A stretch of 49,147 bases of DNA from an uncultured Gammaproteobacteria bacterium (GTDB lineage: Bacteria > Pseudomonadota > Gammaproteobacteria > Immundisolibacterales > Immundisolibacteraceae), in contig CAJXVN010000002.1 in the NCBI GenBank assembly GCA_913060775.1, positions 1 to 49,147 on the forward strand, given 5' to 3'. This document shows, in pieces, positions 16,592 to 35,922 of this stretch. Made by a program: the position numbers and the translations under genes. The notes under the pieces are model-generated. The model searched no databases and was not told the DNA's origin. It worked only from the letters and a program-made list of their open reading frames with translations. Position 1 is the stretch's first letter. The number at the start of each line of letters is the position of its first letter.

Positions 16592-17173
16592 ATGATTAGT
16601 AGACGCGAATTTTTACGCGGTGGTGCAGTCGCCGGAATCGCTACCACCTTACCCGCAGGCGCGGTCATTGCCGCCAGCCAGACCAGGCCAACCGTCGCTT
16701 TTGATGCAATCTGTGACACCCGCTATGAAGAGGGCGACCAGTTTCTGCGCGCCGTATCGTCCCAGGCCTATCGAGTCCACGGCCTGGATAACGACCCCGG
16801 TTCCGTCATGCCGGCCATTACCGCTGCAGTCGCCGAAGGACGCGCCATCACCGGACTAACCACCGACGCGGCATTGCTGTTAGCCGAGCAACTGGCATTC
16901 GCAGAAGGCTACGCATTGACATACAAGGGGGTGCATAAACATCTCTCAACTGATCAGATCGAACATCAACTGACACTGGGGCAACGCTGGCAGGAGAGCA
17001 TTAAACCAGCCCTGCTGGAAGCGGACAGTGCCTGGCCCGAGGTCATTGCCAAACTGATGATCACCGTTACGCCCGACACAGAGGCGTTGGTGGAAAAGCG
17101 CCTCACGGCCTCGGCCAGTCGTCACCCTGAGAGCCCCGGCCATCTGGTTTCGTGGATTTTGCAACCCATTTGA
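16592..17173 (+). CDS. Tat-signal protein of unknown function
   Basis: A 193-residue protein with a clear twin-arginine signal: MISRREFLRGGAVAGIATTL, then an Ala-rich core ending near AGAVIAAS. It should be exported folded to the periplasm. I do not recognise the mature domain, which is mostly alpha-helical by composition and has only one Cys in the mature part. It lies 139 bases upstream of the first flavocytochrome gene on the same strand. That flavoprotein has no obvious export signal yet its family works with a periplasmic cytochrome. A role in export or maturation is a possibility, not shown. ATG 16592 has GGGAG about 12 bases upstream, a long spacing. Confidence 0.7.
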   Translation: MISRREFLRGGAVAGIATTLPAGAVIAASQTRPTVAFDAICDTRYEEGDQFLRAVSSQAYRVHGLDNDPGSVMPAITAAVAEGRAITGLTTDAALLLAEQLAFAEGYALTYKGVHKHLSTDQIEHQLTLGQRWQESIKPALLEADSAWPEVIAKLMITVTPDTEALVEKRLTASASRHPESPGHLVSWILQPI

Positions 17174-17312: not shown

Positions 17313-18893
17313 ATGGCAGCAGTGCTACCCGACTGGTTATCACCGCAAGAATTTTCAACCGCGATCGACGAGATGGCCAATGCCATTGGGCAGCAGTGGG
17401 TCATCCACGACGGCGATCCAAAACTGCGCAGCTACCGCGACTCCTTTTCGACGCTGCCAGGCGACGCTAACGTACCGTCAGCAGTGGTAGCCCCGGACGG
17501 CATTGAAGAAATTCAGGCGATCCTGAAAATAGCCAATGAACACCGAGTACCTCTATGGCCAATTTCAACGGGTCGCAATTTTGCCTATGGCGGGCCAGCC
17601 CCGAGAATGCCGGGGTACGTGGTTCTCGATTTAAAACGGATGAACCGTATTCTTGAAGTCAACGAAGAGTACGCCTACGCCCTGGTAGAACCTGGTGTCA
17701 GCTACTTCCAGCTATACGAGTATCTGCAGAAAAACAACATCAAACTCTGGATTGATCCTGCGGCCCCCGGCTGGGGCGGCATCGTCGGCAACACACTGGA
17801 ACACGGCGTCGGTTACACGCCCTACGGCGACCATTTCATGATGCATTGCGGAATGGAAGTGGTACTGCCGGACGGCACCCTGTTCCGCACGGGCCAGGGA
17901 TCTCTGCCGGAAACCGAATCCTGGCAGGTCTTTCAGTACGGTTTTGGTCCAATCCTCGACGGTGTTTTCTCGCAAAGTAATTTTGGCATCGTCACCAAAA
18001 TGGGCATGTGGCTGATGCCGGAACCCCCCGGATACATGCCTTTCCTGATTACCTATGAAAACGAAGAAGACCTGGCCATCATCACCGAGGTGGTTCGCCC
18101 ACTCAAGGTAAACATGGTCATCCCCAACGGTGCCTTCACGGTCGACCTGCTCTGGGACGCTGCCGTGAAAGTGTCCAAGCGCCAGTATTACAGTGGCAAA
18201 GGGCCTATCCCCGACAGTGCCCGCAAAAAAATCATGTCCGACTACAAGCTAGGGCAGTGGAATTTCTACGCAGCCCTGTACGGCCCGCCGCCGATGATGG
18301 AAAACACCATGCAGGTGATTCGCGATACCCTCGGCGCGATCCCAGGTGCAAGAGTCTGGACCGCCGAAGAGCGTAAACACGACGCTGCATTCCAGTATCG
18401 CTCCAAGCTAATGCGCGGTGAGCCGAACATGACCGAGTTTGGCCTGATGAACTGGGTCGGCGGTGGTGGCCACATCAACTTTTCACCCATCAGCCCCACC
18501 ACCGGCGAAGACGCCATGCGTCAGTACGAAATGATCAAGAACCGCTCTCATGAGTACGGCTTTGATTACATCGGAGAGTTTGCCGTCGGCTGGCGCGACA
18601 TGCACCACGTTTACATGCTGATGTTTGATCGCACTGACGACGAAGAGCGACAGCGCGCCCACGAACTCTTCGGCGTACTCATCGATGAAGCCGCCGCCGC
18701 CGGTTATGGCGAGTATCGAACCCATCTGGCATTCATGGACCAGGTAGCCAAAACCTATAGTTGGAACGACCACGCGCTGTGGAAACTCCACGAACGGCTC
18801 AAAGATGCATTTGACCCGAACGGCATTCTGGCCCCGGGGAAACAGGGCATCTGGCCGGCACACATGCGGGAGAAACATTCATGGACAAGCTAA
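17313..18893 (+). CDS. Flavoprotein subunit of a 4-cresol dehydrogenase/vanillyl-alcohol oxidase type flavocytochrome (copy 1)
   Basis: A 526-residue FAD-linked oxidase. The PCMH-type FAD domain has PLWPISTGRNFAYGG near residue 90 and WIDPAAPGWGGIVGN near 150. His387 in GGGGHINFSP aligns with the histidine that holds FAD covalently in vanillyl-alcohol oxidase. The p-cresol methylhydroxylase Tyr position is Met here. Phenol-site residues are kept: Tyr468-Arg469 (GEYRTH) and His431-His432 (DMHH). The expected reaction is oxidation of the para-alkyl group of a phenol to alcohol and aldehyde, with electrons passed to the cytochrome encoded next, whose start overlaps this stop by 13 bases. A strong GGGAGGAG site precedes the ATG. 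Residue mapping is from memory of family sequences. Confidence 0.88.
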   Translation: MAAVLPDWLSPQEFSTAIDEMANAIGQQWVIHDGDPKLRSYRDSFSTLPGDANVPSAVVAPDGIEEIQAILKIANEHRVPLWPISTGRNFAYGGPAPRMPGYVVLDLKRMNRILEVNEEYAYALVEPGVSYFQLYEYLQKNNIKLWIDPAAPGWGGIVGNTLEHGVGYTPYGDHFMMHCGMEVVLPDGTLFRTGQGSLPETESWQVFQYGFGPILDGVFSQSNFGIVTKMGMWLMPEPPGYMPFLITYENEEDLAIITEVVRPLKVNMVIPNGAFTVDLLWDAAVKVSKRQYYSGKGPIPDSARKKIMSDYKLGQWNFYAALYGPPPMMENTMQVIRDTLGAIPGARVWTAEERKHDAAFQYRSKLMRGEPNMTEFGLMNWVGGGGHINFSPISPTTGEDAMRQYEMIKNRSHEYGFDYIGEFAVGWRDMHHVYMLMFDRTDDEERQRAHELFGVLIDEAAAAGYGEYRTHLAFMDQVAKTYSWNDHALWKLHERLKDAFDPNGILAPGKQGIWPAHMREKHSWTS

Positions 18894-19213
18894 TTTCGCT
18901 GATTGGTCTGGCCCTGCTCGTCAGCAGCGCAGCCGCCCCGGTCATGGCTGAGGAACGTCCCCGACCGGGTGAAGAATCCTGGTTACTATTCTGCGAAGGG
19001 TGTCACCGGCCAGATGCAGAAGGTCCCGGCACGGTGATGTTGCAGCGCCGTTTTGGCGACGAGCGCATGGCCATTAAAGGCAATAAGACACTAGCGCCAG
19101 AATATATCCGCTCCGTCGTGCGTCACGGCCTGCTGGAAATGGCCCCGCTGCGACAAACCGATATTACCGATGCTGAGCTCGACCTCCTTATCGAGTTTTT
19201 AGCCAGTGAATAA
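18881..19213 (+). CDS. Cytochrome c subunit of flavocytochrome copy 1
   Basis: A 110-residue class I cytochrome c. An N-terminal signal peptide (LISLIGLALLVSSAAAPVMA) leads to the periplasm. Haem is bound at CEGCH near residue 38-42, with Met92-type axial ligand candidates in LLEMAPL. It matches the PchC subunit of 4-cresol dehydrogenase in size and partner. It accepts electrons from the flavoprotein encoded just upstream, with which it overlaps by 13 bases (translational coupling), and passes them to the respiratory chain. The UbiD-type gene follows after 24 bases. Confidence 0.88.
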   Translation: MDKLISLIGLALLVSSAAAPVMAEERPRPGEESWLLFCEGCHRPDAEGPGTVMLQRRFGDERMAIKGNKTLAPEYIRSVVRHGLLEMAPLRQTDITDAELDLLIEFLASE

Positions 19214-19237
19214 CCGTAAGCCAGTCGAGGTTTAACC

Positions 19238-20707
19238 ATGAACAAACAGTCTGAACTCTCAATTGAGGTGGCCAAAAAAGTTGGCTCACTGCGGGACTTT
19301 CTAGAGCTGCTGGAATCCAAAGGCCAGTTCATCACCTGGCCCGATGAAGTGTTACCCGAACCGGACATCCGCAACATTCTGGTGGCCGCGGGGGACGACG
19401 ATAAAAACGGCCCGGCGATACTCTTCGATAAGATCAAAGGTTATCCCGGCAAGCGCATGGTCGCCGGCGTCCACGGTAGTTTTTCGAATATCGCCACCCT
19501 GTTGGGATACCCACTGGGCACGCCGATCCGTGACCTGTTTTATGACATCGTCGGCCGCTGGACCACGGAAGAGCCACAGTTACCCTTTATCGAGCCCGAT
19601 AAAGCGGCGATTCATGAAGTCCGCATCGAAGAAAACTTCAACTTGTTCGAGCTGTTACCGCTCTATCGCATCAACGCGATGGACGGTGGCTTCTATATCG
19701 GCAAGGCCAACGTCGTCAGCCGAGACCCCAACGACCCGGACAATTTTGGCAAGCAGAATGTCGGTATTTACCGCATTCAGCCCCATGGCCCCGACACCTT
19801 CACGCTGATGAGTGTGCCGGTTCACGACATGGGCCGACATATGCTCGCCGCCGAAATGGACGATGTGCCGCTGAAAATAGCCGTCATGCTCGGCAACCAC
19901 CCGGCGATGGCGATGTTTGCCGCCACCCCGGTTGGCTATGACGAATCCGAATACGCCTACGCAGCCGGCATGATGGGCGCGCCCATCGCATTGACTAAAT
20001 CCGGCAATGGTCTTGATATTCAGGCCGATGGCGAGATGGTGATCGAAGCAGAATATGTACACGGCGAGCGCCAGTATGAAGGCCCTTTTGGTGAGTTCCC
20101 CGGCAGCTACAGCGGGGTACGGCGGGCACCCGTGTTTAAAATCACCGGCATCTCCCACCGCAAAGATCCCATCTTTGAAAACATTTACATCGGTAAAGGC
20201 TGGACCGAACACGACACCTTGATCGGGCTAAACACTTCCGCACCCATCTATGCGGTATTGAAAAAAGAGTTTCCCGAAGTCGAAGCGGTCAATGCGCTCT
20301 ACCAACATGGACTGACCGGCATCATTTCGGTGAAAAACCGGTTTGCCGGTTTCGCCAAATCGGTGGCACTGCGGGCACTGAGTACGCCCCATGGACTGAT
20401 TTATCTGAAAAACCTGATCATGGTCGATGCCGATGTGGATCCGTTCGATCTGAATCAGGTGATGTGGGCACTGTCAGTGCGCACCCGCGCCAACGACATC
20501 CAGGTACTCGACAACATGGCCGGGATAATGATTGATCCCTCAGCGGTGATCCCGGGCAAGGGGCATCACCTGATTATTGATGCGACTACCCACATGGCGC
20601 CTGACCCAATCGGCGGCGACGTTGAAATAGTCCGTCGTCCTGCCGGCCGGGAAATTGATGAGATGGCCCAGCTTATTAAATCGATGCAAAAAGAGGCTCG
20701 CAAATGA
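19238..20707 (+). CDS. UbiD-family decarboxylase, hydroxyarylic acid decarboxylase subunit C type
   Basis: A 489-residue prenylated-FMN-dependent (de)carboxylase. The hallmark EGPFGEFPG places the catalytic acids at Glu281 and Glu286. Other conserved segments are FDKIKGYPGKRMVAGVHGS, the NVGIYRIQPHGPDTFTL strand, and GKGWTEHDT. The adjacent BsdD-like gene points to the non-oxidative 4-hydroxybenzoate/vanillate decarboxylase (BsdC/VdcC) group, which removes CO2 to give a phenol. The enzyme needs prFMN made by UbiX (BsdB); no ubiX is in this window. It overlaps the next gene by ATGA. In context it could decarboxylate acids made from the flavocytochrome products (inference). Confidence 0.88.
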   Translation: MNKQSELSIEVAKKVGSLRDFLELLESKGQFITWPDEVLPEPDIRNILVAAGDDDKNGPAILFDKIKGYPGKRMVAGVHGSFSNIATLLGYPLGTPIRDLFYDIVGRWTTEEPQLPFIEPDKAAIHEVRIEENFNLFELLPLYRINAMDGGFYIGKANVVSRDPNDPDNFGKQNVGIYRIQPHGPDTFTLMSVPVHDMGRHMLAAEMDDVPLKIAVMLGNHPAMAMFAATPVGYDESEYAYAAGMMGAPIALTKSGNGLDIQADGEMVIEAEYVHGERQYEGPFGEFPGSYSGVRRAPVFKITGISHRKDPIFENIYIGKGWTEHDTLIGLNTSAPIYAVLKKEFPEVEAVNALYQHGLTGIISVKNRFAGFAKSVALRALSTPHGLIYLKNLIMVDADVDPFDLNQVMWALSVRTRANDIQVLDNMAGIMIDPSAVIPGKGHHLIIDATTHMAPDPIGGDVEIVRRPAGREIDEMAQLIKSMQKEARK

Positions 20708-20928
20708 CCGCCTGTCCACGCTGTTCCAATACCAACGCCACGGCCCTCCACGAAGGCAAGGAAGGCGCAACCGTCGTCTGGACTATTTTTAACTGTCCGG
20801 ACTGTCACTACCACTGGCGCGATAGCGAACCGGAGGAAAGCATCAATCCGGCCAAACGCAAGGCGGTCTTTCAAATGGATACCTCTAATCCAGACAAGTA
20901 CCAGCTAGTTCTTCCGGTCAGGGAATAG
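20704..20928 (+). CDS. BsdD/VdcD-like small subunit of hydroxyarylic acid decarboxylase
   Basis: A 74-residue protein with two CxxC pairs (CPRC at residues 4-7 and CPDC near 31-34) and HWRDSEPEESINPAKRK. This matches BsdD/YclD, the small zinc-ribbon-like D subunit of the BsdBCD phenolic acid decarboxylase, which is about 75 residues long. It begins within the stop of the C-subunit gene (ATGA overlap). Its presence is the best evidence that the UbiD protein next door is a hydroxyarylic acid decarboxylase and not the ubiquinone enzyme. Confidence 0.85.
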   Translation: MTACPRCSNTNATALHEGKEGATVVWTIFNCPDCHYHWRDSEPEESINPAKRKAVFQMDTSNPDKYQLVLPVRE

Positions 20929-20988
20929 TTCCGACCAAACAACCAGGAAGCATCCAACACAGGTGCCTTCCAGGGGGCGAGGAAGCCA

Positions 20989-22305
20989 ATGAAAATCGAA
21001 GACCTTAAAAGCGTAATCGTTGACCGTACCGAGGATGGCGAATTCACCCTCGACCGTAACATTTATTACGACGAAGAGCTGTTCGAAACCGAAATGCAGA
21101 CCATTTTCGAGGGCAACTGGATTTTTCTTGCCCACGAAGGCCATTTGCCCGAAGTCAACGATTTTTTCACCACCTGGATGGGCCGCAAACCCGTCGTGCT
21201 TATTCGCGGCGAGGACAATCAGGTTCGGGGCTTCATCAATGCCTGCAGTCACCGGGGGGCTACCCTGTGTCGCACCAACCGGGGCAACAAGAAGTTTCTG
21301 ACCTGTAGCTATCACGGCTGGTCATACGATACCCAGGGTCAATTACGGGACGTAAAAGACCACGACAAGGGTGGCTACACGGATGAATTTGACCGGCGGC
21401 AACACAACCTGAAGCCGATTGCACGCATTGCCAGTTATCACGGCTTTATCTTTGGATCATTAAACGCCGATGTTCCACCGCTTGAAGAGGCACTGGGAAA
21501 CGCCAAACCTTTTATGAAAATGCTGGGTGATCAATCCCCCGGCGGCATGGAGATCATCAAAGGTTTTTCTCGCTACACCACCCCGAGCAACTGGAAATTC
21601 CAGCTAGAAAACGGTGTCGACGGCTATCATGTGTCGACGGTCCACGCCAATTACATCGGCGTCGTCATGAAACGCATGGCCGAGCTGGACGATGATCAGG
21701 TGAAATCTATCGCCCGCGGCAACATGGCCGATATGACCAGCGGCACCTACGACCTGGGGAAAGGCCACACGATTTTGTGGGGAGAAGTTCCCGGTGCTGA
21801 TGATCGACCTCTGGCCGAGCGGCGTGACGAACTCGAACAGCGACTGGGCAAAGAAAGCACCGACTGGATGATCAGCCGGGCCAGGAATCTCGGGATATTT
21901 CCCAACGTGCTGCTCATGGACCAGACCTCCACCCAGATCCGGGTGATTCGGCCTATTTCCGTTGACCTGTCCGAAATCACTATCTACTGCATCGCGCCGA
22001 AAGGCGAAAGTTCGAATGCTCGGGCCCGTCGAATCCGCCAGTATGAAGATTTTTTCAATGCCACCGGCATGGCTACGCCCGATGACCTGTCAGAATTTGC
22101 TGCGTGTCAGGTAGGGAATTACGGCCTTATTGATGAACATCAGTCATTTGACCGTGGACTGGACCGGGTGATTCTTGGCGGTGACGATACCGCCGATCGC
22201 CTGGGTATCACGCCCTATAGCAGTGGCCCCAACTGGTCGGACGAAAACCTGTTTCAGAGTTTTTACCGGCAGTGGTATGAATTGGTAAAAGCGGGCTATG
22301 AATAA
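20989..22305 (+). CDS. RHD alpha subunit, benzoate type (no adjacent beta)
   Basis: A 438-residue catalytic subunit of the BenA/XylX/AntA branch. The Rieske ligands are CSHRG and CSYHGW near residues 85-108. The iron site is ENGVDGYHVSTVHANY, and the acidic ligand lies in the GMATPDDLSEF region. Conserved DQTSTQIRVIRPISVDLSEIT is typical of this branch. It is embedded between the BsdD-like gene (60 bases upstream) and the second flavocytochrome (85 bases downstream), so it is probably co-transcribed with both. No beta gene is next to it. The unpaired benzoate-type beta at 12040 is one possible partner. The likely substrate is a benzoate-like aromatic acid. Confidence 0.88.
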   Translation: MKIEDLKSVIVDRTEDGEFTLDRNIYYDEELFETEMQTIFEGNWIFLAHEGHLPEVNDFFTTWMGRKPVVLIRGEDNQVRGFINACSHRGATLCRTNRGNKKFLTCSYHGWSYDTQGQLRDVKDHDKGGYTDEFDRRQHNLKPIARIASYHGFIFGSLNADVPPLEEALGNAKPFMKMLGDQSPGGMEIIKGFSRYTTPSNWKFQLENGVDGYHVSTVHANYIGVVMKRMAELDDDQVKSIARGNMADMTSGTYDLGKGHTILWGEVPGADDRPLAERRDELEQRLGKESTDWMISRARNLGIFPNVLLMDQTSTQIRVIRPISVDLSEITIYCIAPKGESSNARARRIRQYEDFFNATGMATPDDLSEFAACQVGNYGLIDEHQSFDRGLDRVILGGDDTADRLGITPYSSGPNWSDENLFQSFYRQWYELVKAGYE

Positions 22306-22390
22306 GCCCAATAATTTAGTTAGTTAACGCTATTTAAGCCCCGAAGAAATCCAGACCGGGGTATTCGAAGAACATTAACCGGAGGAGCCA

Positions 22391-23959
22391 ATGGCTACCA
22401 CGTTACCTGAAGGCGTTTCGTCTTCTGACTTTGATCAGGCGATCAGAGAGATTCGTAAGATCGTCGGCGACGAATGGGTATTTCTCGATAGTGAGCTGAG
22501 TCCCTATCTTGACCATATGTCGGCAGTACCACCCGAATACCGGACACCTTCAGCGGCACTGGCACCGGCCAATGTCGAAGAAACACAGGCAATTCTGAAA
22601 ATAGCCAACCGCTTCAGCCTGCCGCTCTGGACCTATGGCAACGGCAAGAACTGGGCTTACGGCGGACCCACGCCACTCCACGCCGGCTATCTGGTGCTCG
22701 ATCTGAAACGCATGAATCGGATCCTCGAAGTGAATGAAGATTCGGGTTATGTGCTCGTTGAACCCGGGGTTTCCTATTTCCAGCTCTACCAGCACCTGCA
22801 GGACATCGGTTCCAATCTCTGGATTGATTGCGCCGCACCTGGCTGGGGTGGGGTGATTGGTAATGCTCTTGAACACGGTGCCGGCTATACCCCCTACGCA
22901 GATCACTACGTCATGTCCTGTGGCATGGAAGTGCTACTCGCCGATGGTGAACTCGTGCGTACCGGTATGGGCGCCATGCCCGGCAGCAAAGCCTGGCAGC
23001 AATTTAAATACGGTTATGGCCCTACCCTTGATGGCATGTTCACCCAGGGTAATTTTGGCATCGTCACTAAAATGGGTTTCTGGATGATGCCCAAGCCACC
23101 GGCCTACAAACCGTTCATGTTTTCTTACGAGAAAGAATCCGATCTCCACGCCATCATGGAGATTCTCCGACCACTAAAAATGAACATGGTCTGGCAGAAC
23201 GGAGCCGTTGGTGAGCACATTGGCTATAGCGCCTCGGTGCTGGGTCCGCGCTCTGACTACACCGACAGCAGCGCACCGATTACCGATGCGCGCTGGCAGG
23301 AGATCGCCCACGACCTGAATCTGGGCATCTGGAATTTTTACGGGGCCTGTTACGGATTACCCGCGAACGTGGAAATGCAATTCGGCGCACTGAAAGGCGC
23401 CATGACCAGTATTCCGGGCGCCCGCGTCTGGCTCGAAGGTGATCGGGAACCCGACGATGCTGGCTGGAATTACCGGGCCAAGCTGATGCAGGGCATCCCC
23501 AACATGACCGAATTCAATCTGGTCAACTGGGACGGTGGGGGCCATCTCAATTTCAGTCCCATGGGCCCCATGGGCGGTGATCATGCGGTCAAGCTGTACA
23601 ACATGATGAAAGAGATCACTAACGGTTATGGCTTTGATCATCTCACCGAGATGGTCGGCACCTTCCGTGGATTCATTGCTCTGACCATGGTCATGTTTGA
23701 TCCCCGCGATGAAGACGCCGCAAAACGGGCCGATGCCTGCTCGGTCGATATCATTCAGAAAGCCGCTGCCGCCGGCTATGGCGAGCTAAAAGCCAACCTG
23801 AGATACATGAACACCGTCATGGGTTCCTACACCGGCAATGACAGTGGACTGCACAAGGTTAACCAGAAAATTAAAGATGCACTGGACCCGGTCGGAATCC
23901 TGTCACCTGGCAAATCAGACATCTGGCCCAGTAGCTGGAAACACAGCCGTGCCAATTAA
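22391..23959 (+). CDS. Flavoprotein of the 4-cresol dehydrogenase type (copy 2, phenol-site residues changed)
   Basis: A 522-residue FAD-linked oxidase clearly homologous to copy 1 at 17313. The FAD domain is intact: GNGKNWAYGG, WIDCAAPGWGGVIGN, YTPYADHYVMSCGMEV, and His385 in GGGHLNFSP as the candidate covalent FAD ligand. The two motifs that contact phenols in the family are altered. Copy 1 GEYRTH is GELKAN here (Leu466-Lys467), and copy 1 DMHH is GFIA (Ile429-Ala430). The enzyme is probably active on a different, perhaps non-phenolic, benzylic substrate. A cytochrome gene follows after 12 bases. AACCGGAGGAG precedes the start. Residue roles come from family knowledge and need structural alignment. 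Confidence 0.85.
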   Translation: MATTLPEGVSSSDFDQAIREIRKIVGDEWVFLDSELSPYLDHMSAVPPEYRTPSAALAPANVEETQAILKIANRFSLPLWTYGNGKNWAYGGPTPLHAGYLVLDLKRMNRILEVNEDSGYVLVEPGVSYFQLYQHLQDIGSNLWIDCAAPGWGGVIGNALEHGAGYTPYADHYVMSCGMEVLLADGELVRTGMGAMPGSKAWQQFKYGYGPTLDGMFTQGNFGIVTKMGFWMMPKPPAYKPFMFSYEKESDLHAIMEILRPLKMNMVWQNGAVGEHIGYSASVLGPRSDYTDSSAPITDARWQEIAHDLNLGIWNFYGACYGLPANVEMQFGALKGAMTSIPGARVWLEGDREPDDAGWNYRAKLMQGIPNMTEFNLVNWDGGGHLNFSPMGPMGGDHAVKLYNMMKEITNGYGFDHLTEMVGTFRGFIALTMVMFDPRDEDAAKRADACSVDIIQKAAAAGYGELKANLRYMNTVMGSYTGNDSGLHKVNQKIKDALDPVGILSPGKSDIWPSSWKHSRAN

Positions 23960-23971
23960 CCGGAGAGAGCA

Positions 23972-24394
23972 ATGAAAAGATGTATCACGCTAGCACTCGG
24001 TACCAGCCTGGCCCTGCTCCTCACTGCCTGCGGCGACGACCAGAGTGCAGAGTATAAAGAAGGTGCGGATGCCGAAACCATGGCCTCTGCCATGAAGCCG
24101 CCGAGTGTGCCGGCCAGCGAACGGGTGGACGTGTCCTACGAAACCGGCGAAGAAATCTTCACCCACTACTGTGTCCAGTGTCACGGCGAAGGTGAGGGCA
24201 AACCGGGGGCAACCATGTTGGGTATTAAACACGGTGAGGATAAAGCCATTATTAAGGGCCGCGATGACCTGCCGGCAATCTATATCAAAACCGTGGTCAG
24301 AGACGGCCTGTTAGAAATGCCTCCGTTCCGGTTTACCGAGATCAGCGACGAGCAGCTCGACCTGGTTGCCGAGTACGTGCGCTCTCCCAACTAG
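23972..24394 (+). CDS. Cytochrome c lipoprotein, partner of flavocytochrome copy 2
   Basis: A 140-residue class I cytochrome c. The start MKRCITLALGTSLALLLTAC contains a lipobox (LTAC), so it is likely anchored in a membrane by a lipid, unlike the soluble form of copy 1. The haem site is CVQCHGEG near residues 64-71, and LLEMPPF carries the probable Met ligand. It follows the flavoprotein gene by 12 bases and should be its electron acceptor. The Ser/Ala/Pro-rich stretch between lipobox and haem domain is a plausible linker. Confidence 0.87.
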   Translation: MKRCITLALGTSLALLLTACGDDQSAEYKEGADAETMASAMKPPSVPASERVDVSYETGEEIFTHYCVQCHGEGEGKPGATMLGIKHGEDKAIIKGRDDLPAIYIKTVVRDGLLEMPPFRFTEISDEQLDLVAEYVRSPN

Positions 24395-24437: not shown

Positions 24438-25445
24438 ATGAAGTTTGTCATTTTAGGAGCGGGTGGACTCGGCTCGGTTATCGGTGGCTATCTGGCCAAC
24501 GCCGGCGAACAGGTCACCCTCATCGGCCGACAGGCTCACATGGATGCCATCAATGAGAATGGACTTAAAATTGATGGTTGCCGGGGTGACTTCCACATCG
24601 CCGAAAACCTGACCGGTGTCACCTCGCCAGACGACGCTGAAGGCGAATTCGACTACCTGATACTGTTAGTTAAAGGCAAAGACACCGAAACGGCTCTGGC
24701 AGAAGCTGAGCAGCTAAAAAACCGCTGCAAGAACGTACTCTCGCTACAAAACGGCATCGGCAAGGAGAAACGACTGATCGAGTGGGCAGGCGACAAAGTA
24801 ATCGGTGCCTCCACCATCGAGGGCGGCACGCTCCATGAACCCGGACATGCCAGCAATCCCATTACGACACCCACTACCGCCTATTTTGGCGAACTCGACG
24901 GCGGCATTACCCCACGCATAGAAGCCATCACGGATGCCTTCAACCGCGCGGGACTTGGCGCCAGGTCCATGGAAGACATCTACCACGTGCTCTGGGAAAA
25001 GCTGGTGCAGATCTGTACCGCATCTAGCTGGTCGGTCTCTACCCTCGCCGGTGGCGACCTCTACTTTGCCGATGGCCTGGCCGTGCGCGAAGGGGCTGAA
25101 CACTACGTCGCCATTGCCCGCGAGTTACTAACTGTTTACGCAGCCCTGGGCTACCAACCCGAAAATTTTTATGCCCCCATGTCGCAGTTTAAGGAGCTCA
25201 ACTCCGTCAGCGACGAAAAAGCCATCGAGATCATGCAGGCGCTGGGCGAACGGATGAAAAACGACCCCGGGGGTCGCCGCGGTCGCACCTCCATGCATGA
25301 GGATGTCACTCGTGGACGTAAGACCGAGGTCGACGAGATCATCAAACCCTTCCTGGTCAAGGCGGCGGAACTAAACATAGAAATCCCCACCGTCAATGCG
25401 GTCTACCGGATTATCAAGGTGCTGGATAACTACCTGAAGCATTGA
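24438..25445 (+). CDS. Ketopantoate reductase family (ApbA/PanE-like) oxidoreductase
   Basis: A 335-residue NAD(P)-dependent reductase. The Rossmann start is MKFVILGAGGLGSVIGGYLA with GxGxxG at residues 7-12. The family's middle motif is visible as LLVKGKDTETALAEAE, with its Lys, and LQNGIGKE. The C-terminal helical domain has VLWEKLVQICTASSWS and the GRRGRTSMHEDVTRGRKTEVD segment, which matches the SMxxDxxxGRxTEID signature. It closes the plus-strand operon after the second cytochrome. In this setting it probably reduces or oxidises a 2-keto/2-hydroxy acid other than ketopantoate (inference). A palindromic terminator follows. Confidence 0.85.
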   Translation: MKFVILGAGGLGSVIGGYLANAGEQVTLIGRQAHMDAINENGLKIDGCRGDFHIAENLTGVTSPDDAEGEFDYLILLVKGKDTETALAEAEQLKNRCKNVLSLQNGIGKEKRLIEWAGDKVIGASTIEGGTLHEPGHASNPITTPTTAYFGELDGGITPRIEAITDAFNRAGLGARSMEDIYHVLWEKLVQICTASSWSVSTLAGGDLYFADGLAVREGAEHYVAIARELLTVYAALGYQPENFYAPMSQFKELNSVSDEKAIEIMQALGERMKNDPGGRRGRTSMHEDVTRGRKTEVDEIIKPFLVKAAELNIEIPTVNAVYRIIKVLDNYLKH

Positions 25446-28428: not shown

Positions 28429-28923
28429 TTAAATATTATAAAAATCCATCGCACCAGGGATCAGGTCATTCACAACAAGAATTTTTTTGGCGGCGATTTT
28501 CAAACTACCGTCAGCTTGCTGGCGAATTTTATGCTCGTACTGACCCGCAAAAGTAATGGTTTTTTTCTTCTTATAACTGGTGGTGATCCACGACGAGGTT
28601 GCAAAAAACTCACCGTTACCCAGCTCCTTAACCTGCACGCTACCGATTAGATGGCTGGTGCGCGCCAGCGGCACAGATGCCGACGACAACCCGGTACGAA
28701 TCCGGAAAACCCGATCCTCGAGCCCAGAACGATCCGCATAATAAATCAGCGAAATTTCGCTATCCGGGTCACTGGTGTAGTCAATACCATCACCATTGGA
28801 CGCCGGTACCCAATACTCGGCGTCTTCCTGATAAAGGTCCAGCCAGGCGTCCCATTCGCGAAGGTCAATGAGTCGGCCCTCGGTAAAAACTAGATCCGCA
28901 CAGCGGCTAGCAAACTCTTCCAT
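28429..28923 (-). CDS. RHD beta subunit, benzoate type
   Basis: A 164-residue NTF2-fold small subunit. EWDAWLDLYQEDAEYWVPASN, RSGLEDRVFRIRTGLSSASVPLARTSHLIGSV and the ending LIPGAMDFYNI are BenB-like. It follows the alpha gene at 28963 by 39 bases and should pair with it. ATG 28923 is chosen, with AAGGAAAA just upstream, over a TTG at 28926. Confidence 0.87.
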   Translation of the reverse strand: MEEFASRCADLVFTEGRLIDLREWDAWLDLYQEDAEYWVPASNGDGIDYTSDPDSEISLIYYADRSGLEDRVFRIRTGLSSASVPLARTSHLIGSVQVKELGNGEFFATSSWITTSYKKKKTITFAGQYEHKIRQQADGSLKIAAKKILVVNDLIPGAMDFYNI

Positions 28924-28962
28924 CAAATTTTCCTTAAACTTGTTACGATTTTAAATGGCCGG

Positions 28963-30297
28963 TCATTTGCCCTGCATCAGCTCTAGCCAACGCCGGTGCT
29001 GAGCAATAAAAATTCCTTCATCTTCGACTCTGCCACCCGAAGTCGCCGTGTTCAGCCCCAGTTCCTGAGCGAACTCATTCGCTCCTTCTGTCAGGTGTTT
29101 GGTGCCCCGGGACATGTCATTCCAACGGGCCAGTGCACCCATGTAGCCGCTCTGGCTATAGCTAAATTCAGCAAGATCATCGGGCGTCGCCATGCCACTG
29201 GCGTTAAAAAAGTCTTCATACTGGCGTACCCGCGCACGGCGATATTTAGGCTCTTCCCCTTTTGGGGCGATGCAGTAGACGGTCACTTCGGTGAGGTCAA
29301 CGTTAATCGGACGAAACACCCGGATTTGGGTCGACATCTGATCCATGATGAACACATTGGGGTAAATCTGCAGGTTGCGCAGTTTGCCAATCATCCAGCC
29401 GGTGCGCACTTCGCCATATTTTTCGGCCCACTCAGCCCATTTATGGAAATTAGGACGGCGATCACCTTTATTCGGCCAGTCACCCCACAGCATGGTATGG
29501 CCATTGCCAAAGTCAAAAAATCCGCCATTGAGGCCCTTGGCTCCAAGCTGCCCCACTTCCATCGATTTGGTGTGTTCGTCGCCGGCGCGCAGCTTTTCAC
29601 GGTTTGCCGTGGTCAACGCAAAGTTCAGGTGAGCCTGATGCACGTGGTAGCCATCAACACCGTTCTCGGTCTGTAGTTTCCAGTTGCCATCATAGGTGTA
29701 GGTAGAAACACCTTTAAGCACCTCAAACCCCTCATCGGACTGGTCAGCCAACAGGTCGATCATCACTGCGGCGTCGGCAAGGTGATCTTTCAGCGGCGGC
29801 GCATCAGCGTTAAGACTGGCGAACAGAAAACCACGATAATTTTCAAGTTTAGGAACTTTGGTCAGGCCGTAGTTGGCTTTATCAAACTGGTCGGGGTATC
29901 CACCAATATTCTCTTTGGTGACACTCATCAAATCGCCACTGGTGTTAAAACACCAGCCGTGGAAAAAGCAGGTGAAATCCGCCCGGTTGCCGGTGCTCTC
30001 GCGAACCAGCTGGGCACCACGGTGGGAACAGGCATTGATGAAAACGTTTATCTCTTCCCCGTCAGCACCGCGAACCACCACCACCGGCTGGCGGCCCATA
30101 TAGGTCGTAAAGTAGTCATTGGGATTACGAATCTGATCTTCGTGACCCACAAACAACCAGGTTTTTTCCCAGATCTGCGTCATTTCCCGTTCAAACAGGT
30201 CCTCATCGGTAAAGATGGACCGGTCAACGCGAGAAATGCCCTCCTCAGGGCGATCATCAAGATACTTTTCTAGACCAACAATGTCAGGAGAGTTCAT
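28963..30297 (-). CDS. RHD alpha subunit, benzoate type
   Basis: A 444-residue catalytic subunit. Rieske ligands are CSHRG and CFFHGW near residues 88-111. The iron site is ENGVDGYHVHQAHLNF, and DDLAEF in the GMATPDD segment carries the acidic ligand. DQMSTQIRVFRPINVDLTEVT is the branch signature. It is the most divergent of the four tandem minus-strand alpha genes. Its beta partner follows at 28429. The beta gene of the next pair lies 83 bases upstream, so the two alpha-beta pairs are probably in one transcript. GAGGTGGT precedes the ATG. Substrate is probably an aromatic carboxylate. Confidence 0.9.
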   Translation of the reverse strand: MNSPDIVGLEKYLDDRPEEGISRVDRSIFTDEDLFEREMTQIWEKTWLFVGHEDQIRNPNDYFTTYMGRQPVVVVRGADGEEINVFINACSHRGAQLVRESTGNRADFTCFFHGWCFNTSGDLMSVTKENIGGYPDQFDKANYGLTKVPKLENYRGFLFASLNADAPPLKDHLADAAVMIDLLADQSDEGFEVLKGVSTYTYDGNWKLQTENGVDGYHVHQAHLNFALTTANREKLRAGDEHTKSMEVGQLGAKGLNGGFFDFGNGHTMLWGDWPNKGDRRPNFHKWAEWAEKYGEVRTGWMIGKLRNLQIYPNVFIMDQMSTQIRVFRPINVDLTEVTVYCIAPKGEEPKYRRARVRQYEDFFNASGMATPDDLAEFSYSQSGYMGALARWNDMSRGTKHLTEGANEFAQELGLNTATSGGRVEDEGIFIAQHRRWLELMQGK

Positions 30298-30380
30298 ATC
30301 ACCACCTCATTCAGTCAGGGGGACTGCCCCCACAATCTTCGCCAACCCGTGTCCGGCTGTCTGTCGAACACCTGATTGAT

Positions 30381-30872
30381 CTAAATACTATAAATATCCA
30401 TGATGTCATGGATAACATCATTTGCAACCACGACCTTTTTACTGGCGATTTTCAGTCCAGCGTCGGTTTCCCGCAACCCATATTCATAGTGGCAATAGAA
30501 GCTCAATGCCTCCTTGTGGCGATAGCTCATCACTTCGCCGTTGGCATAAACCTGAACGTCGCTACCATCGGCTGCCTGCGCTTCAATATTGGAGAACAGG
30601 TGAACCGTTCGTGGCAGTGGAGTGGACGCCGATGAACGTCCGGTACGGATGCGGAAAATGCGATCTTCCAGTCCGGAACGGTCGGGATACCACATCAACG
30701 ACAGCTGGGACTGGGGATCATCGGTCAGGGTGTATTCATCGTCCCACATCGGAATCCAGAAGGTAGCGTCGGGCAGGTAGAGATCAATCCATTCATCCCA
30801 CTCGCGCTTGTCCAGTCGGCGTGCCTCTTCAAATAACAGCGCCTCGCAGCGCCGTAACAGATCGTTACTCAT
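30381..30872 (-). CDS. RHD beta subunit, benzoate type
   Basis: A 163-residue small subunit. EWDEWIDLYLPDATFWIPMWD, RSGLEDRIFRIRTGRSSASTPLPRT and the ending VIHDIMDIYSI fit the BenB group and are close to the beta at 34027. It follows the alpha gene at 30973, but a strong stem-loop lies in the 100-base gap between them, which may lower beta expression relative to alpha. Confidence 0.88.
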   Translation of the reverse strand: MSNDLLRRCEALLFEEARRLDKREWDEWIDLYLPDATFWIPMWDDEYTLTDDPQSQLSLMWYPDRSGLEDRIFRIRTGRSSASTPLPRTVHLFSNIEAQAADGSDVQVYANGEVMSYRHKEALSFYCHYEYGLRETDAGLKIASKKVVVANDVIHDIMDIYSI

Positions 30873-30920
30873 GGTTTTTCCCTAGCGTTGATTTTAAGTT
30901 TGCAGACCACAAACATAAAC

Positions 30921-30946
30921 GAGCCGCCGGAACAGTCCGGCGGCTC
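30921..30946 (-). terminator. Stem-loop between an RHD alpha and its beta gene
   Basis: A perfect 10-bp GC-rich stem (arms 30921-30930 and 30937-30946) with a 6-base loop. On the minus strand it is followed by GTTTATGTTTG, moderately T-rich. It could be an attenuating terminator or a 3'-end stabilising hairpin that sets alpha-to-beta mRNA ratio. Confidence 0.6.
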
Positions 30947-30972
30947 GTCAGGTGATTGTTAACCAGCCGTTA

Positions 30973-32298
30973 CTAGCTGCCGATTACCTGGCTCCAGTAT
31001 TCATGCTGTGCAACCATGATGCCTTCATCTTCGAGTTTGACACCGGAGACCTTGACCTGAATACCGAGTTTTTCCGCCTCGGGATGATTTTCATCGGTAA
31101 TCTGATGCGTCAGACCACGTGAGCAATCATTCCATCTGGCCAGCTTGCCGGTATAGGAGATTTGTGACTGTTTAAACTCGGTAATGTCGTCCGGGGTAGC
31201 CATACCGCTGACATTAAAAAAGTCTTCCCACTGACGGATACGATGAGCACGAGCCTCAGCGCTTTCACCCTTAGGCGCAATACCGTAAATGGTCACTTCA
31301 GTCTCATCTACGCTAATCGGGCGAAATACCCGAATCTGCGAAGAGGTCTGATCCATGATGAACACGTTGGGATAAAGCAGCAGGTTACGCAGACGGTTGA
31401 CCATCCACTTGGCCCGTTCCTCACCATATAGCTCGGCATAGGTGGCCATCTGGTCATAATTGGGCCGGTCCTGCGGATTAGGGAAATCACCCCAGAGCAC
31501 CACGTGGCCGTGGTCAAGATCAAAATAGCCGCCCTGTTTTTTGTCGATACCGCCAATCTGCATGGCTTTGACCGTGTCCGCTTCGCCCTTAAGTTTACGG
31601 CGACGCTCCGTGGTCATCACGTAGTTACCGTGGGTAGCATAAAGATGATAACCATCCACGCCGTTCTCGGCCTGAATCTTCCAGTTACCTTTATAAGTAT
31701 AAGTGGACGAGCCCTTGAGGACTTCCATACCTTCCGGTGACTGGTCCGCAAACAGATCGATAAAGGTCAGGGCCGGGCCCATGTGCTCTTCAAACGGCAG
31801 CACGTCATCGTTAAGGCTGCCAAAGATGAAGCCCTTGTAAACCTGGAGCTTCGGCACCTTGGTCAGGCTGTAATTTTTCTTGTCGAAACATTCAGGATAA
31901 CCAGCACCGTCTTCCATGAAGACAACCTGCGCATTACCAAAAGTATCAAACGACCAACCATGAAAGGGGCAGGTGTAATCAGCCCGGTTACCACGGGTTT
32001 CGCGTAGCAGGGTGGTGCCACGATGGGCGCAGGCATTGGCAAAAGCACCGACTTCACCATCGGGCATGCGCACCAGAATAATTGGCTGACGACCCATGAA
32101 CAGGGTCATAAAGTCATTCACGTTGGGAATCTGGCTCTCGTGGGCCATATAGATCCAGTTGCCTTCCCAGATCTTTTCCATTTCAAGTTCAAACAACTCG
32201 GGATCGGTAAAAATGGATCGATCAACGCGAACAACACCTTCCTCGGGTCGGTTATCGATATAACTGGCAGGGATAGGGCTATCAACGGGCTTATTCAT
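30973..32298 (-). CDS. RHD alpha subunit, benzoate type
   Basis: A 441-residue catalytic subunit. Rieske ligands are CAHRG and CPFHGW. The iron site is ENGVDGYHLYATHGNY, followed by VMTTERRRKLKGEAD, shared almost exactly with the alpha at 32523. ATG 32298 is chosen because GGAG lies 8 bases upstream; an in-frame start at 32322 lacks a site. It is closely related to the alpha genes at 32523 and 34582 and looks like a tandem duplicate of them. The beta at 30381 follows across a stem-loop. Confidence 0.9.
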   Translation of the reverse strand: MNKPVDSPIPASYIDNRPEEGVVRVDRSIFTDPELFELEMEKIWEGNWIYMAHESQIPNVNDFMTLFMGRQPIILVRMPDGEVGAFANACAHRGTTLLRETRGNRADYTCPFHGWSFDTFGNAQVVFMEDGAGYPECFDKKNYSLTKVPKLQVYKGFIFGSLNDDVLPFEEHMGPALTFIDLFADQSPEGMEVLKGSSTYTYKGNWKIQAENGVDGYHLYATHGNYVMTTERRRKLKGEADTVKAMQIGGIDKKQGGYFDLDHGHVVLWGDFPNPQDRPNYDQMATYAELYGEERAKWMVNRLRNLLLYPNVFIMDQTSSQIRVFRPISVDETEVTIYGIAPKGESAEARAHRIRQWEDFFNVSGMATPDDITEFKQSQISYTGKLARWNDCSRGLTHQITDENHPEAEKLGIQVKVSGVKLEDEGIMVAQHEYWSQVIGS

Positions 32299-32522
32299 GG
32301 GTTTTGCTCCATCGCCACGCATCGGGTGGCTTGCTCTTTAAACTTTAGTCGGCACTTCACTTAGACAGCAGGCCGACAGGCAAATTCTGCGCATTTTTCT
32401 ATCGCAGGTTTATCACATAAACACTGTAATAAGGCGAATTCTATATCCAACCGCCCCCAACAACCAGTTTAGGGGAGTTCAGTAGCAAAACGCGAACCGA
32501 GTTCCCTACTAATCATGACGGA

Positions 32523-33857
32523 CTAGCGACTCAAAATCTCCGCCCACCAGCGGTGTTGCGCCACCATTACGCCCTCGTCCTCAAACACTGTGCCGCCGCC
32601 ATTCACCTCAATACCCAGTTCGGCGGCATCAGGATGAGACTCACCAATTTTGCGGGTTTTTAACCCGCGACTGCCATCATTCCAACGAGAGTTTTTGGCT
32701 TTGTATGCCAGCTGGCTCTGTTTGAATTCAGTGATGTCGTCGGGAGTCGCCATGCCACTGGCGTTGAAAAAGTCTTCGTATTGTCGAATCCGCTTGGTCC
32801 TGTCTTCAGCAGGCTCACCAATCGGCGCAATACCGTAAATTGTCACTTCCGTTGTATCCACGTCAATCGGTCTGAACATCCGAATCTGGGTGGATGTCTG
32901 GTCCATTAAAAAGACATTGGGATAAATCAGGGTGTTACGAATTTTGCCCAGCATCCAGGTCGCCCGGGCCTCACCGAACTGCTGCTTATAGTGTTCGAAC
33001 TGATGAAAATTGGGGCGATCATCCGGGTTGGGAATGGTGCCAAACACCACGCAGTGACCATGCCCCAGCTCAAAAGACCCACCAATACCGGGCTTGTTAA
33101 TCATGTCGCCGACCATGATCGCCTTGACCTCGTCCGCTTCGCCCTTGAGCTTACGGCGGCGTTCCGTGGTCATCACGTAGTTACCATGAGTGGCGTAGAC
33201 GTGATAACCATCCACCCCGTTCTCAGCCTGGATTTTCCAGTTTCCCTTGAAAACATAACTGGAGCGTCCCTTGAGCACTTCCAGACCATCCGGTGCCTGG
33301 TCAACCATCATGTCAATAATGGTAGTGGTTGGCCCAAGGTGCTCCGACAGTTCCAGTACATCATCGTTGAGACTGCCGAAGATAAAGCCGCGATAACTTT
33401 CAACCCTGGCAACGGGTGTCAGGCCGTAGTTCTGCTTATCAAACTCATCAGGGTAATCGCCGACATCTTCCTTAAACACTACTTTTGCATTTCCACGGGT
33501 ATCAAACACCCAACCGTGGAAGGGGCAACTGTAGTCAGCTTTATTACCACACTCTTCGCGCAACAAGGTGGTACCGCGATGGCCGCAGGCATTAACGAAT
33601 CCGTTGATTGCAACGCCATCTGGATCGCGCACCAGGATAACCGGCGTCCGGCCCATCGTCAGGGTAATAAAATCGTTGGGATTGGGAATCTGGCTCTCGT
33701 GGGCCAGGTAGATCCAGTTGCCCTCCCATATCTTGTCTATTTCCAGCTCGAACAGTTCTGGATCAGTGAACATGGAACGATTGACACGAACCACCCCGTC
33801 TTCGGGTCGTTCATCAATAAAATCTGCAGGGCTAACCGGTAATTCAGGCCTGTTCAT
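32523..33857 (-). CDS. RHD alpha subunit, benzoate type (no adjacent beta)
   Basis: A 444-residue catalytic subunit. Rieske ligands are CGHRG and CPFHGW; the iron site is ENGVDGYHVYATHGNY. Most of the first 250 residues match the neighbour at 34582 nearly position for position (for example TTLLREECGNKADYSCPFHG). It is flanked by a terminator upstream and by a 224-base gap to the next alpha start, with no beta gene of its own. It must borrow a beta, probably from 34027 or 30381, or form an alpha-only oxygenase. A strong AAGGAGGGGAG site precedes the ATG. Reading frame and ligands are intact, so it is not an obvious pseudogene. Confidence 0.9.
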   Translation of the reverse strand: MNRPELPVSPADFIDERPEDGVVRVNRSMFTDPELFELEIDKIWEGNWIYLAHESQIPNPNDFITLTMGRTPVILVRDPDGVAINGFVNACGHRGTTLLREECGNKADYSCPFHGWVFDTRGNAKVVFKEDVGDYPDEFDKQNYGLTPVARVESYRGFIFGSLNDDVLELSEHLGPTTTIIDMMVDQAPDGLEVLKGRSSYVFKGNWKIQAENGVDGYHVYATHGNYVMTTERRRKLKGEADEVKAIMVGDMINKPGIGGSFELGHGHCVVFGTIPNPDDRPNFHQFEHYKQQFGEARATWMLGKIRNTLIYPNVFLMDQTSTQIRMFRPIDVDTTEVTIYGIAPIGEPAEDRTKRIRQYEDFFNASGMATPDDITEFKQSQLAYKAKNSRWNDGSRGLKTRKIGESHPDAAELGIEVNGGGTVFEDEGVMVAQHRWWAEILSR

Positions 33858-33970
33858 TAGACTCCCCTCCTTGCTGAATAGGCTACCTCTGGACGATCTG
33901 TCAGCACATCGTCCAGCGGATCGGGTTAACTTTACTTCCTTTAGAACCCTGGCAACAACGTCCTGAAATA

Positions 33971-34004
33971 AAAAAGGCCGCCCCGCTCAACGAGCAGGGC
34001 GGCC
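33971..34004 (-). terminator. Strong rho-independent terminator after an RHD alpha-beta pair
   Basis: A 13-bp stem with one mismatch (arms 33976-33988 and 33992-34004) and a 3-base loop. On the minus strand it is followed by TTTTTTATTT. It ends the 34582/34027 alpha-beta transcript and isolates the following alpha gene. Confidence 0.9.
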
Positions 34005-34026
34005 CCGACGCAGACCTGGAAGCCGC

Positions 34027-34518
34027 TCAGACGCTGTATATGTCAATAATGTCCGGGATCAGGTCATTACTAACAATGATCTTTTTGCCCGCTATTTGCA
34101 GGCCATCACCCGTGCGTCGCAGGGTGTGCTCATACCGACAATAAAACTCGTCGTGGTTCTTATGGCGGTAGCTACTGACCACGCCGACTGAATAGACCCG
34201 ATATTCGCCATTATCCTCGGCGTCCACGGACACATTGGAGATGGCATGGACCGTCCTTGGTAGCGGCGTAGAGGCCGACGAAGCACCCGTACGAATTCTA
34301 TAGATACGGTCCTCAAGGCCACTGCGGTTGGGATACCACATTAACGACAGCTCGCGCTGCGGATCAGTGGTCACTTCATACTCATTAACCCACATCGGGA
34401 TATGCCACCAGCTATCCTCGGTAAACAGTGCAAGCCAGGCATCCCAGTCGTTGGTATCCAGGTAACGCCCCTCGCGATAAAGAACATCGGCGCATTCAGC
34501 GATTAAGTTTGCGTCCAT
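34027..34518 (-). CDS. RHD beta subunit, benzoate type
   Basis: A 163-residue small subunit. DWDAWLALFTEDSWWHIPMWV, RSGLEDRIYRIRTGASSASTPLPRTVHAISNV and the ending LIPDIIDIYSV place it in the BenB group. It follows the alpha at 34582 by 63 bases, and a strong terminator comes 22 bases after its stop. AAGGAAA precedes the ATG. Confidence 0.88.
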   Translation of the reverse strand: MDANLIAECADVLYREGRYLDTNDWDAWLALFTEDSWWHIPMWVNEYEVTTDPQRELSLMWYPNRSGLEDRIYRIRTGASSASTPLPRTVHAISNVSVDAEDNGEYRVYSVGVVSSYRHKNHDEFYCRYEHTLRRTGDGLQIAGKKIIVSNDLIPDIIDIYSV

Positions 34519-34581
34519 TACTTAAATTTCCTTGGTTGTGGTCTATTTTTGACCCGATTTTTTTAGAGAAAGCCGTTGTGA

Positions 34582-35922
34582 TCAGCTACTTAATGTCTCT
34601 AACCACCAGCGGTGCTGGGCCGCCATGATGCCTTCGTCTTCAAGCATCATGCCCCCGCCCTGGACCTCAATCCCCAGTTCTTCCGCTTCCGGATGGCTCT
34701 CGTTTAACTTGCGGGTACTTAAACCCCGGGAGACGTCATTCCAGCGCGCCGTTTTGGCCTTGTAAGCTATCTGGCTCTGCTTGAATTCCATGATGTCGTC
34801 CGGCGTGGCCATACCACTGGCATTAAAAAAGTCTTCCCATTGCCGAATCCGATGAGCCCGGTCTTCATCGCTTTCCCCCACCGGCGCAATCCCGTAAATC
34901 GTCACCTCAGTCGTATCCACGTCGATTGGCCGGTACACACGAATCTGGGTAGAGGTCTGGTCCATCAAAAAAACATTCGGATAGACCAGGGTGTTACGCA
35001 GTTTGGTGACCATCCAGCGGGCTTTAGCCTCACCAAATTCGCGGGTATAGCGCTCCAGCTGACTATAGTTGGGACGGTCTTCAGGGTTAGGAAAGGTGCC
35101 GAACAGGGTGCAGTGGCCGTGACCAAGGTCAAAGTAACCGCCGACCCCTTTCTTGCCGATCATGTCCCCAACCTGCATCGCTTTCACTTCATCGTCATCG
35201 CCCAGCAGTTTCCGGCGGTGCATGGTGGTTGCAACGTAGTTACCGTGGGTCGCAAACAGGTGATAGCCATCAACACCGTTTTCGGCCTGAATCTTCCAGT
35301 TTCCCTGAAACAGATAGGTGGAATGACCCCGCAACACTTCGAGTCCATTGGGAGATTGATCCACCAGCAGGTCAATAATGGTGGTAGTGGGGCCGAGGTG
35401 ATCTTTCAGCTCCAGCACGTCGCCATTCAGGCTGCCAAAAATAAATCCGCGATAACTCTCCACTTTGGCAACGGGTGTCAGGCCATAATTTTTTTTGTCG
35501 AACTGTTCGGGATAATCCCCTACCTCTTCTTTAAAAACCACAACGGCATCACCACGAGTATCAAACACCCAGCCGTGGAACGGGCAGCTGTAATCGGCTT
35601 TGTTACCGCACTCTTCCCGCAACAAGGTGGTGCCGCGGTGGCCACAGGCGTTTACAAAGGCGTTAATGTTGCCATCCGGATCCCGCACCAGAATAATGGG
35701 CGTCCGGCCCATCGTCAGGGTCATAAAATCGTTAGGATTGGGAATCTGGCTCTCGTGGGCCAGGTAAATCCAGTTACCCTCCCAGATTTTCTCCATCTCC
35801 AGTTCAAACAGCTCTGGATCGGTAAAAATAGAGCGATCGACCCGGTCGACCCCTTCGTCAAAACGTTCATCTATGTAGGCCGCCAGATCCGCAATACTCG
35901 GGCGTTTAGTCGTTGCATCCAT
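34582..35922 (-). CDS. RHD alpha subunit, benzoate type
   Basis: A 446-residue catalytic subunit. Rieske ligands CGHRG and CPFHGW lie near residues 88-112, and the iron site is ENGVDGYHLFATHGNY near 215-230. The GMATPDDIMEF segment carries the acidic ligand. It heads the minus-strand RHD array, paired with the beta at 34027. GGAGGT lies upstream of the ATG, and TTGACG about 50 bases before the start is a possible -35 box, though no good -10 is seen. It is the closest relative of the orphan alpha at 32523. Confidence 0.9.
   Translation of the reverse strand: MDATTKRPSIADLAAYIDERFDEGVDRVDRSIFTDPELFELEMEKIWEGNWIYLAHESQIPNPNDFMTLTMGRTPIILVRDPDGNINAFVNACGHRGTTLLREECGNKADYSCPFHGWVFDTRGDAVVVFKEEVGDYPEQFDKKNYGLTPVAKVESYRGFIFGSLNGDVLELKDHLGPTTTIIDLLVDQSPNGLEVLRGHSTYLFQGNWKIQAENGVDGYHLFATHGNYVATTMHRRKLLGDDDEVKAMQVGDMIGKKGVGGYFDLGHGHCTLFGTFPNPEDRPNYSQLERYTREFGEAKARWMVTKLRNTLVYPNVFLMDQTSTQIRVYRPIDVDTTEVTIYGIAPVGESDEDRAHRIRQWEDFFNASGMATPDDIMEFKQSQIAYKAKTARWNDVSRGLSTRKLNESHPEAEELGIEVQGGGMMLEDEGIMAAQHRWWLETLSS

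Follow-up and report, generated by a model that had tools for sequence, protein, structure and literature searches.

A clade of VAO/PCMH-type flavoproteins from Immundisolibacterales with Leu-Lys at the place of the phenol-binding Tyr-Arg pair

Flavoenzymes of the VAO/PCMH type oxidize phenols derived from plants and oil, and they form dimers with connected active sites. To our knowledge, all characterized members employ a Tyr/Tyr/Arg grip, by which the para-phenol is converted to the phenolate before hydride transfer. The first-shell residues of the oxidase EUGO from Rhodococcus jostii (5fxd) have been sorted into five clusters, of which the P-cluster (Y91, Y471, R472), the phenolate-binding set, is conserved in 292 4-phenol oxidoreductase sequences (PMC11148156) and was called "strictly conserved" in PMC12909556. 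H436 and Y473 of p-cresol methylhydroxylase (PCMH; Pseudomonas putida, 1dii), a flavoprotein associated with a small c-type cytochrome, were equated with H466 and Y503 of VAO as gatekeepers of the active site, and VAO His466/PCMH His436 was termed "concierge" together with Tyr503 (PMC5646868). The same work involves VAO Asp170 in attachment or incorporation of the flavin. In this family, the N5 contact is Pro or Ile in dehydrogenases and Leu in oxidases, and a clade of dehydrogenases characterized by His, Asp and Pro has been described, to which the vanillyl-alcohol dehydrogenase of Marinicaulis flavus (VAD; 8s7p) belongs, an enzyme with His387 that makes no use of O2 (PMC7617285).

Here, we analyzed a stretch of 49,147 nucleotides (subsequently designated the window), which is contig 2 of a 3.06-Mb genome in 351 contigs and encodes two such flavoproteins. 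Near-identical loci are present in MAGs named Gammaproteobacteria B29_G4 and Immundisolibacteraceae NORP326; the order Immundisolibacterales comprises degraders of pollutants and hydrocarbons. On the plus strand, a Tat-signal protein of ~190 aa that belongs to no named family (16592..17173; typed by alignment and HMM, with TAT_signal as the only Pfam match) precedes the first flavoprotein, copy 1 (17313..18893, 526 aa), whose closest solved relative is VAD. Downstream follow the c-type cytochrome partner of copy 1 (18881..19213; signal peptide, heme motif CEGCH of the CxxCH type, Pfam Cytochrome_CBB3) and a UbiD-family decarboxylase resembling VdcC, the subunit C of non-oxidative hydroxyarylic acid decarboxylases (19238..20707), which scored 637 bits against the NCBIfam VdcC model, slightly below the cut-off of 650, and which is kept across copy-1-type cassettes. 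The adjoining VdcD-like small subunit (20704..20928, 74 aa) is shorter than the length cut-off of the first ORF listing and was compared by eye with VdcD of plasmids pNL1 and pBN2. Behind VdcCD, there are a BenA-like Rieske oxygenase alpha subunit without an adjacent beta subunit (20989..22305), the second flavoprotein, copy 2 (22391..23959, 522 aa), its c-type cytochrome partner with a lipoprotein-like signal (23972..24394; CVQCH, likewise CxxCH and Pfam Cytochrome_CBB3) and a ketopantoate-reductase-family protein (PanE/ApbA; 24438..25445). Both flavoprotein ORFs are intact.

Rieske oxygenases are abundant in the window: at 28429-35961, four alpha subunits are encoded in tandem on the minus strand, three of which scored as BenA-like while the fourth was typed by Pfam only, and a beta-subunit-sized ORF accompanies most of them. 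BenA-like alpha subunits lacking an adjacent beta subunit also precede copy 2 at L060:8801-11543, and genomes G001 and G002 have two of them in tandem at this place. In G001, a gene of the fatty-acid-desaturase family is located between VdcD and the Rieske genes.

Copy-1-type cassettes, which are also found on catabolic plasmids, have the order Tat protein, flavoprotein, cytochrome, aldehyde dehydrogenase, VdcC and VdcD. The aldehyde dehydrogenase is present in G001, G002, G007, pNL1, pF2 and pBN2 and absent in the window; the Sphingopyxis cassette has an untyped ORF in this slot, which is probably the same gene. Copy 1 would be a cytochrome-c-linked dehydrogenase of 4-alkylphenols or 4-hydroxybenzyl alcohols resembling VAD and PCMH, and the cassette would convert a p-alkylphenol via the aldehyde to 4-hydroxybenzoate and finally, through decarboxylation by VdcCD, to phenol.

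Copy 1 and copy 2 share 50% identity with hardly any gaps in the pairwise alignment. According to the original prediction, copy 1 carries Tyr468-Arg469 and His431-His432 while copy 2 has Leu-Lys and Ile-Ala at these places. Translation and alignment with PCMH, VAD and EUGO, the reference sequences obtained by structure search, bear out exactly these residues: Y468-R469 (codons 18714-18719) and H431-H432 (18603-18608) of copy 1 correspond to L466-K467 (23786-23791) and I429-A430 (23675-23680) of copy 2. The Tyr-Arg site is homologous to Tyr503-Arg504 of VAO, Tyr473-Arg474 of PCMH and Tyr471-Arg472 of EUGO, and with Y92 the P-cluster of copy 1 is complete. In copy 2, Tyr90, the third phenol contact (VAO Tyr108), is retained, but Leu466 and Lys467 replace Tyr and Arg. 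Since the flanks of the site are gapless between both copies (GYGEYRTHLAFMD / GYGELKANLRYMN), no shifted alignment restores Tyr-Arg in copy 2, and a misalignment hiding the pair was rejected. Arg471 of copy 2 was likewise dismissed as a substitute Arg, as this position is not conserved within the group of copy-2 relatives.

The double His had been thought to activate phenols, a role that it did not keep in the analysis. H431 of copy 1 aligns with PCMH H436, i.e. with a residue of the gate (PMC5646868), and family members possessing Tyr-Arg have IQ, VQ, CF or ML at this place. This variability across the family led us to reject the double His as diagnostic of the phenol site. A second copy-1-type protein of the same genome, whose gene neighbours one of copy-2 type on contig C175 (L041:1716-3332), keeps Tyr-Arg but has its double His replaced by Ile-Gln.

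Relatives of copy 2 were detected on contigs C42 and C175 of its own genome as well as in G001, G002, G004 and G005, with a fragment in G006; a fragment on contig C112 is probably the missing end of the copy-2-type gene on C175. In a maximum-likelihood tree, nine copy-2 rows formed a single branch (support 100/100), which comprises three paralogue groups in Immundisolibacterales with identities down to 54% and which is separate from copy 1 and its relatives (p-AU 0.04 when both groups are joined in one clade). Leu-Lys is present in all rows of this clade that cover the site, including two fragments, and in none of the about 45 other active-type rows. All of the latter carry Tyr-Arg, and they span PCMH, VAD, EUGO and a 550-aa branch of Helicobacter, Campylobacter and Rhizobium. 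Among the inspected matches from 369 Gammaproteobacteria and 399 Pseudomonadota genomes, no further Leu-Lys protein was found, and outside Immundisolibacterales there was none among these, the closest GTDB-contig matches or the plasmid loci that were read.

The loss of residues held essential might signify that copy 2 is a decaying duplicate. However, close copy-2 orthologues exhibit dN/dS values of 0.02-0.03 (with dS near saturation), no orthologue contains a stop, and identical changes occur in three paralogue groups. The clade is under strong purifying selection, and these selection and conservation results led us to reject decay, which we regard as extremely improbable. In G005, it is the copy-1 orthologue (L066/L010:957-2591) that is interrupted by two in-frame stops (TGA and TAA), with copy 2 and the other cassette genes intact; the stops may reflect a real loss or an assembly error.

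Copy 2 possesses the overall features of an active family member. Its FAD_binding_4 domain was recognized by Pfam (E 5e-29), and the FAD motifs, His385 (codon 23543-23545) and the CxxCH cytochrome partner are intact, as originally predicted. The AlphaFold2 model (mean pLDDT 84, pTM 0.84), in which confidence drops only at certain FAD loops, which is to be expected of a model built without the cofactor, adopts the VAO fold and matches VAD best among solved structures (TM 0.94), with PCMH at TM 0.92. VAD is also the best solved match by sequence, with 735 bits for copy 1 and 567 bits for copy 2. It resembles both copies in its His at the FAD-link site, in its Pro at N5 and in being a dehydrogenase rather than an oxidase (PMC7617285), but differs from copy 2, which lacks the Tyr468-Arg469 pair and in which Glu275 takes the place of an Arg of VAD. 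PCMH is similar in pairing a flavoprotein with a cytochrome and in its Ala-Pro at N5, and it has the Glu positions E374 and E420 in common with copy 2; the latter, however, lacks the counterparts of Tyr473-Arg474 and His436. EUGO resembles copy 2 in its fold and its His390 and served as the first-shell template; in contrast to copy 2, it is an oxidase with Asp151-Leu152 and an intact Tyr-Tyr-Arg P-cluster. The anaerobic benzene flavoprotein of PMC13416013 was dismissed as a relevant relative, being only remotely related.

Next to each copy lies a c-type cytochrome gene, and the N5 contact is Pro in both (P152 in copy 1, P150 in copy 2), as in dehydrogenases. The position of PCMH Tyr384, to which FAD is attached in that enzyme, is occupied by M in copy 1 and V in copy 2, whereas the position of VAO His422 is His in both (His387 and His385, respectively). 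The expectation that both copies have His rather than Tyr despite their cytochrome partners held, yet it is less surprising than assumed, because dehydrogenases with a His-type FAD site have a precedent in the VAD clade (PMC7617285). VAD in turn has Asp150 in front of its Pro, and both copies have Ala there. Judged from the alignment, His+Ala+Pro is a third combination, common to both copies and to the proteins of pNL1 and Sphingopyxis. As the position of VAO Asp170 is occupied by Ala in both copies, a covalent bond to His is not assured, and the candidate FAD-linking His of both copies may not be covalently bound.

We then assigned the pocket positions of copy 2 by sequence alignment to EUGO. 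The P-cluster positions are Y90, L466 and K467, the T-cluster positions G163, A164 and V422, the H-cluster positions H385 and N387, and the A-cluster positions Y279, L377 and M433, with P150 as N5 contact. The W-cluster corresponds to A149, T167, E275, E374 and E420, where the Tyr169 listed for this cluster in PMC11148156 is a Thr in the deposited EUGO sequence under the numbering used here, so that this position may be off by one. Invariant in the copy-2 clade are 14 of the 17 first-shell positions as compared to 39% of columns overall (hypergeometric p=0.0003), and of the five columns (Q134, E275, L466, K467, W516) in which the clade has a fixed residue that no other active-type row shows, three belong to the first shell (L466, K467, E275; p=0.0003); both values are a guide only, as they treat related sequences as independent and ignore shared descent. 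Because three of the five clade-private columns line the pocket, it has been rebuilt and not merely "stripped" as initially proposed: Tyr90 stays, Lys replaces Arg, and an invariant Glu275 is gained. Copy 2 has the fold, FAD-binding and dehydrogenase features of the 4-phenol oxidoreductases but lacks an intact P-cluster, which is one of the features that define them.

These residues bear directly on the proposal that copy 2 has moved away from para-phenols. The replacement of the phenol contacts is conserved in the clade, and a changed substrate is therefore the simplest reading. On the other hand, retention of Tyr90 together with the exchange of Arg by Lys and the invariant Glu275 means that copy 2 could still bind a phenolate or another anion. 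Copy 2 may have remained a para-phenol dehydrogenase, with the phenolate held by Tyr90 and Lys467. The altered pocket would then only shift the range, e.g. towards phenols that are larger, ortho-substituted or more acidic and require no Tyr-assisted deprotonation. Lys can stabilize a phenolate, Glu374 and Glu420 are common to PCMH and copy 1, the C175 protein that lost the double His while keeping Tyr-Arg suggests a flexible gate, and aromatic-catabolism genes occur throughout the context. Nonetheless, we consider this rather unlikely: strict conservation for the binding of phenolate has been reported for the equivalents of Tyr503 and Arg504 (PMC12909556, PMC11148156), the Leu does not vary within the clade, and no conserved hydroxyl takes the place of Tyr. 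Weak binding of phenols could remain in copy 2, given the retained Tyr90 and the conservative nature of the Arg-to-Lys exchange.

The gene neighbourhood raises another explanation. In pNL1 of Novosphingobium, pF2 of Sphingobium, pBN2 and pBN3 of Paraburkholderia and in Sphingopyxis, the slot behind VdcC or VdcCD is occupied by a degenerate VAO-like protein, subsequently designated B (family loci: L086:16750-18216 in pNL1, L088:13757-15223, L087:14206-15576, L089:13966-15339, L011:12761-14227, L015:12751-14220 and L080). The B proteins, annotated solely as FAD-binding oxidoreductases in pNL1, pF2 and pBN2, share with copy 2 the cassette slot and, by homology, the VAO fold, but the FAD P-loop, the N5 loop and the His, all kept in copy 2, have been lost from them. 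Their first-shell positions are scrambled (1/17 invariant), yet purifying selection still acts on them (dN/dS 0.07-0.2), and they are likely pseudo-enzyme subunits of the active flavoprotein encoded in the respective cassette.

By analogy, copy 2 could be a partner subunit that dimerizes with copy 1 and takes part in assembly, export or the relay of electrons, with only a secondary role for its own active site. A joint clade of copy 2 and B was neither supported nor rejected (p-AU 0.26 and 0.35), and genes of the copy-1 and copy-2 types also lie side by side on C175 and on contig C70 of G004. In addition, only one Tat protein was found for the two flavoproteins of G001, a genome of one contig. 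However, the pocket and the FAD motifs of copy 2 are conserved, at variance with B, and classification of copy 2 as a B-type pseudo-subunit is unsupported. Each copy in the window has its own cytochrome, copy 2 persists in G005 beside the interrupted copy 1 (if this is not an assembly error), and no copy-1 gene is present on the contigs of the C42/C380 paralogue group. Taken together, we regard a mere partner role as even less probable than a retained para-phenol activity. At variance with a cytochrome-linked dehydrogenase, the C42/C380 group lacks an adjacent cytochrome gene, and on the contig of the C42 paralogue no cytochrome gene was found in its vicinity. The latter paralogue adjoins an AMP-binding gene of the acyl-CoA-ligase type, and a PanE-like gene accompanies copy-2-type genes in two of the three paralogue groups, including the C42 copy.

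The family of the Tat-signal protein has 13 matches in 8 genomes among the 369 Gammaproteobacteria genomes, and in all 13 cases a VAO/PCMH-type flavoprotein gene is no more than about 1 kb away. Family loci include that in the window, L086:11432-12004 and those in L071, L070, L033, L023, L035, L073 and L074. The flavoproteins lack a signal peptide of their own, whereas both cytochromes have N-termini resembling export signals; the Tat protein may therefore be a carrier with which the flavoprotein crosses the Tat pore in its folded state. It may correspond to PchX of the P. putida pch operon. No relevant text on PchX, on pNL1 and cresol, or on a Tat partner of PCMH was found in the literature searched.

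Weighing these readings, we lean towards copy 2 being a cytochrome-c-linked flavodehydrogenase with a rebuilt pocket and a changed substrate. Tyr-Arg would have given way to Leu-Lys at the phenolate end while a Glu was gained at the flavin end, so that E275, E374 and E420 would lie near the flavin, with Lys467-Tyr90 at the far end. Copy 2, which is predicted to reside in the periplasm, would transfer hydride from its substrate to FAD, from where the electrons would move on to the cytochrome c of the adjacent downstream gene. The substrate would no longer be a para-phenol activated by the Tyr/Tyr/Arg triad; going by residue charges, one may speculate that it is a ring that carries an anionic group and, at the opposite end, an oxidizable alcohol or amine. 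A more far-reaching version, which we put forward tentatively and with less confidence, is that the copy-2 clade represents the first 4-phenol oxidoreductases to drop the triad, acting as cytochrome-c-linked dehydrogenases on a non-phenolic substrate with the new Glu as a catalytic residue next to the flavin. A clade without Tyr/Tyr/Arg would provide a natural test of the role of the triad and of the capacity of this fold to act on non-phenols, and it may help in biocatalysis on compounds from lignin and oil. For the hydrocarbon-degrading Immundisolibacterales, such an enzyme would fill a gap in aromatic catabolism.
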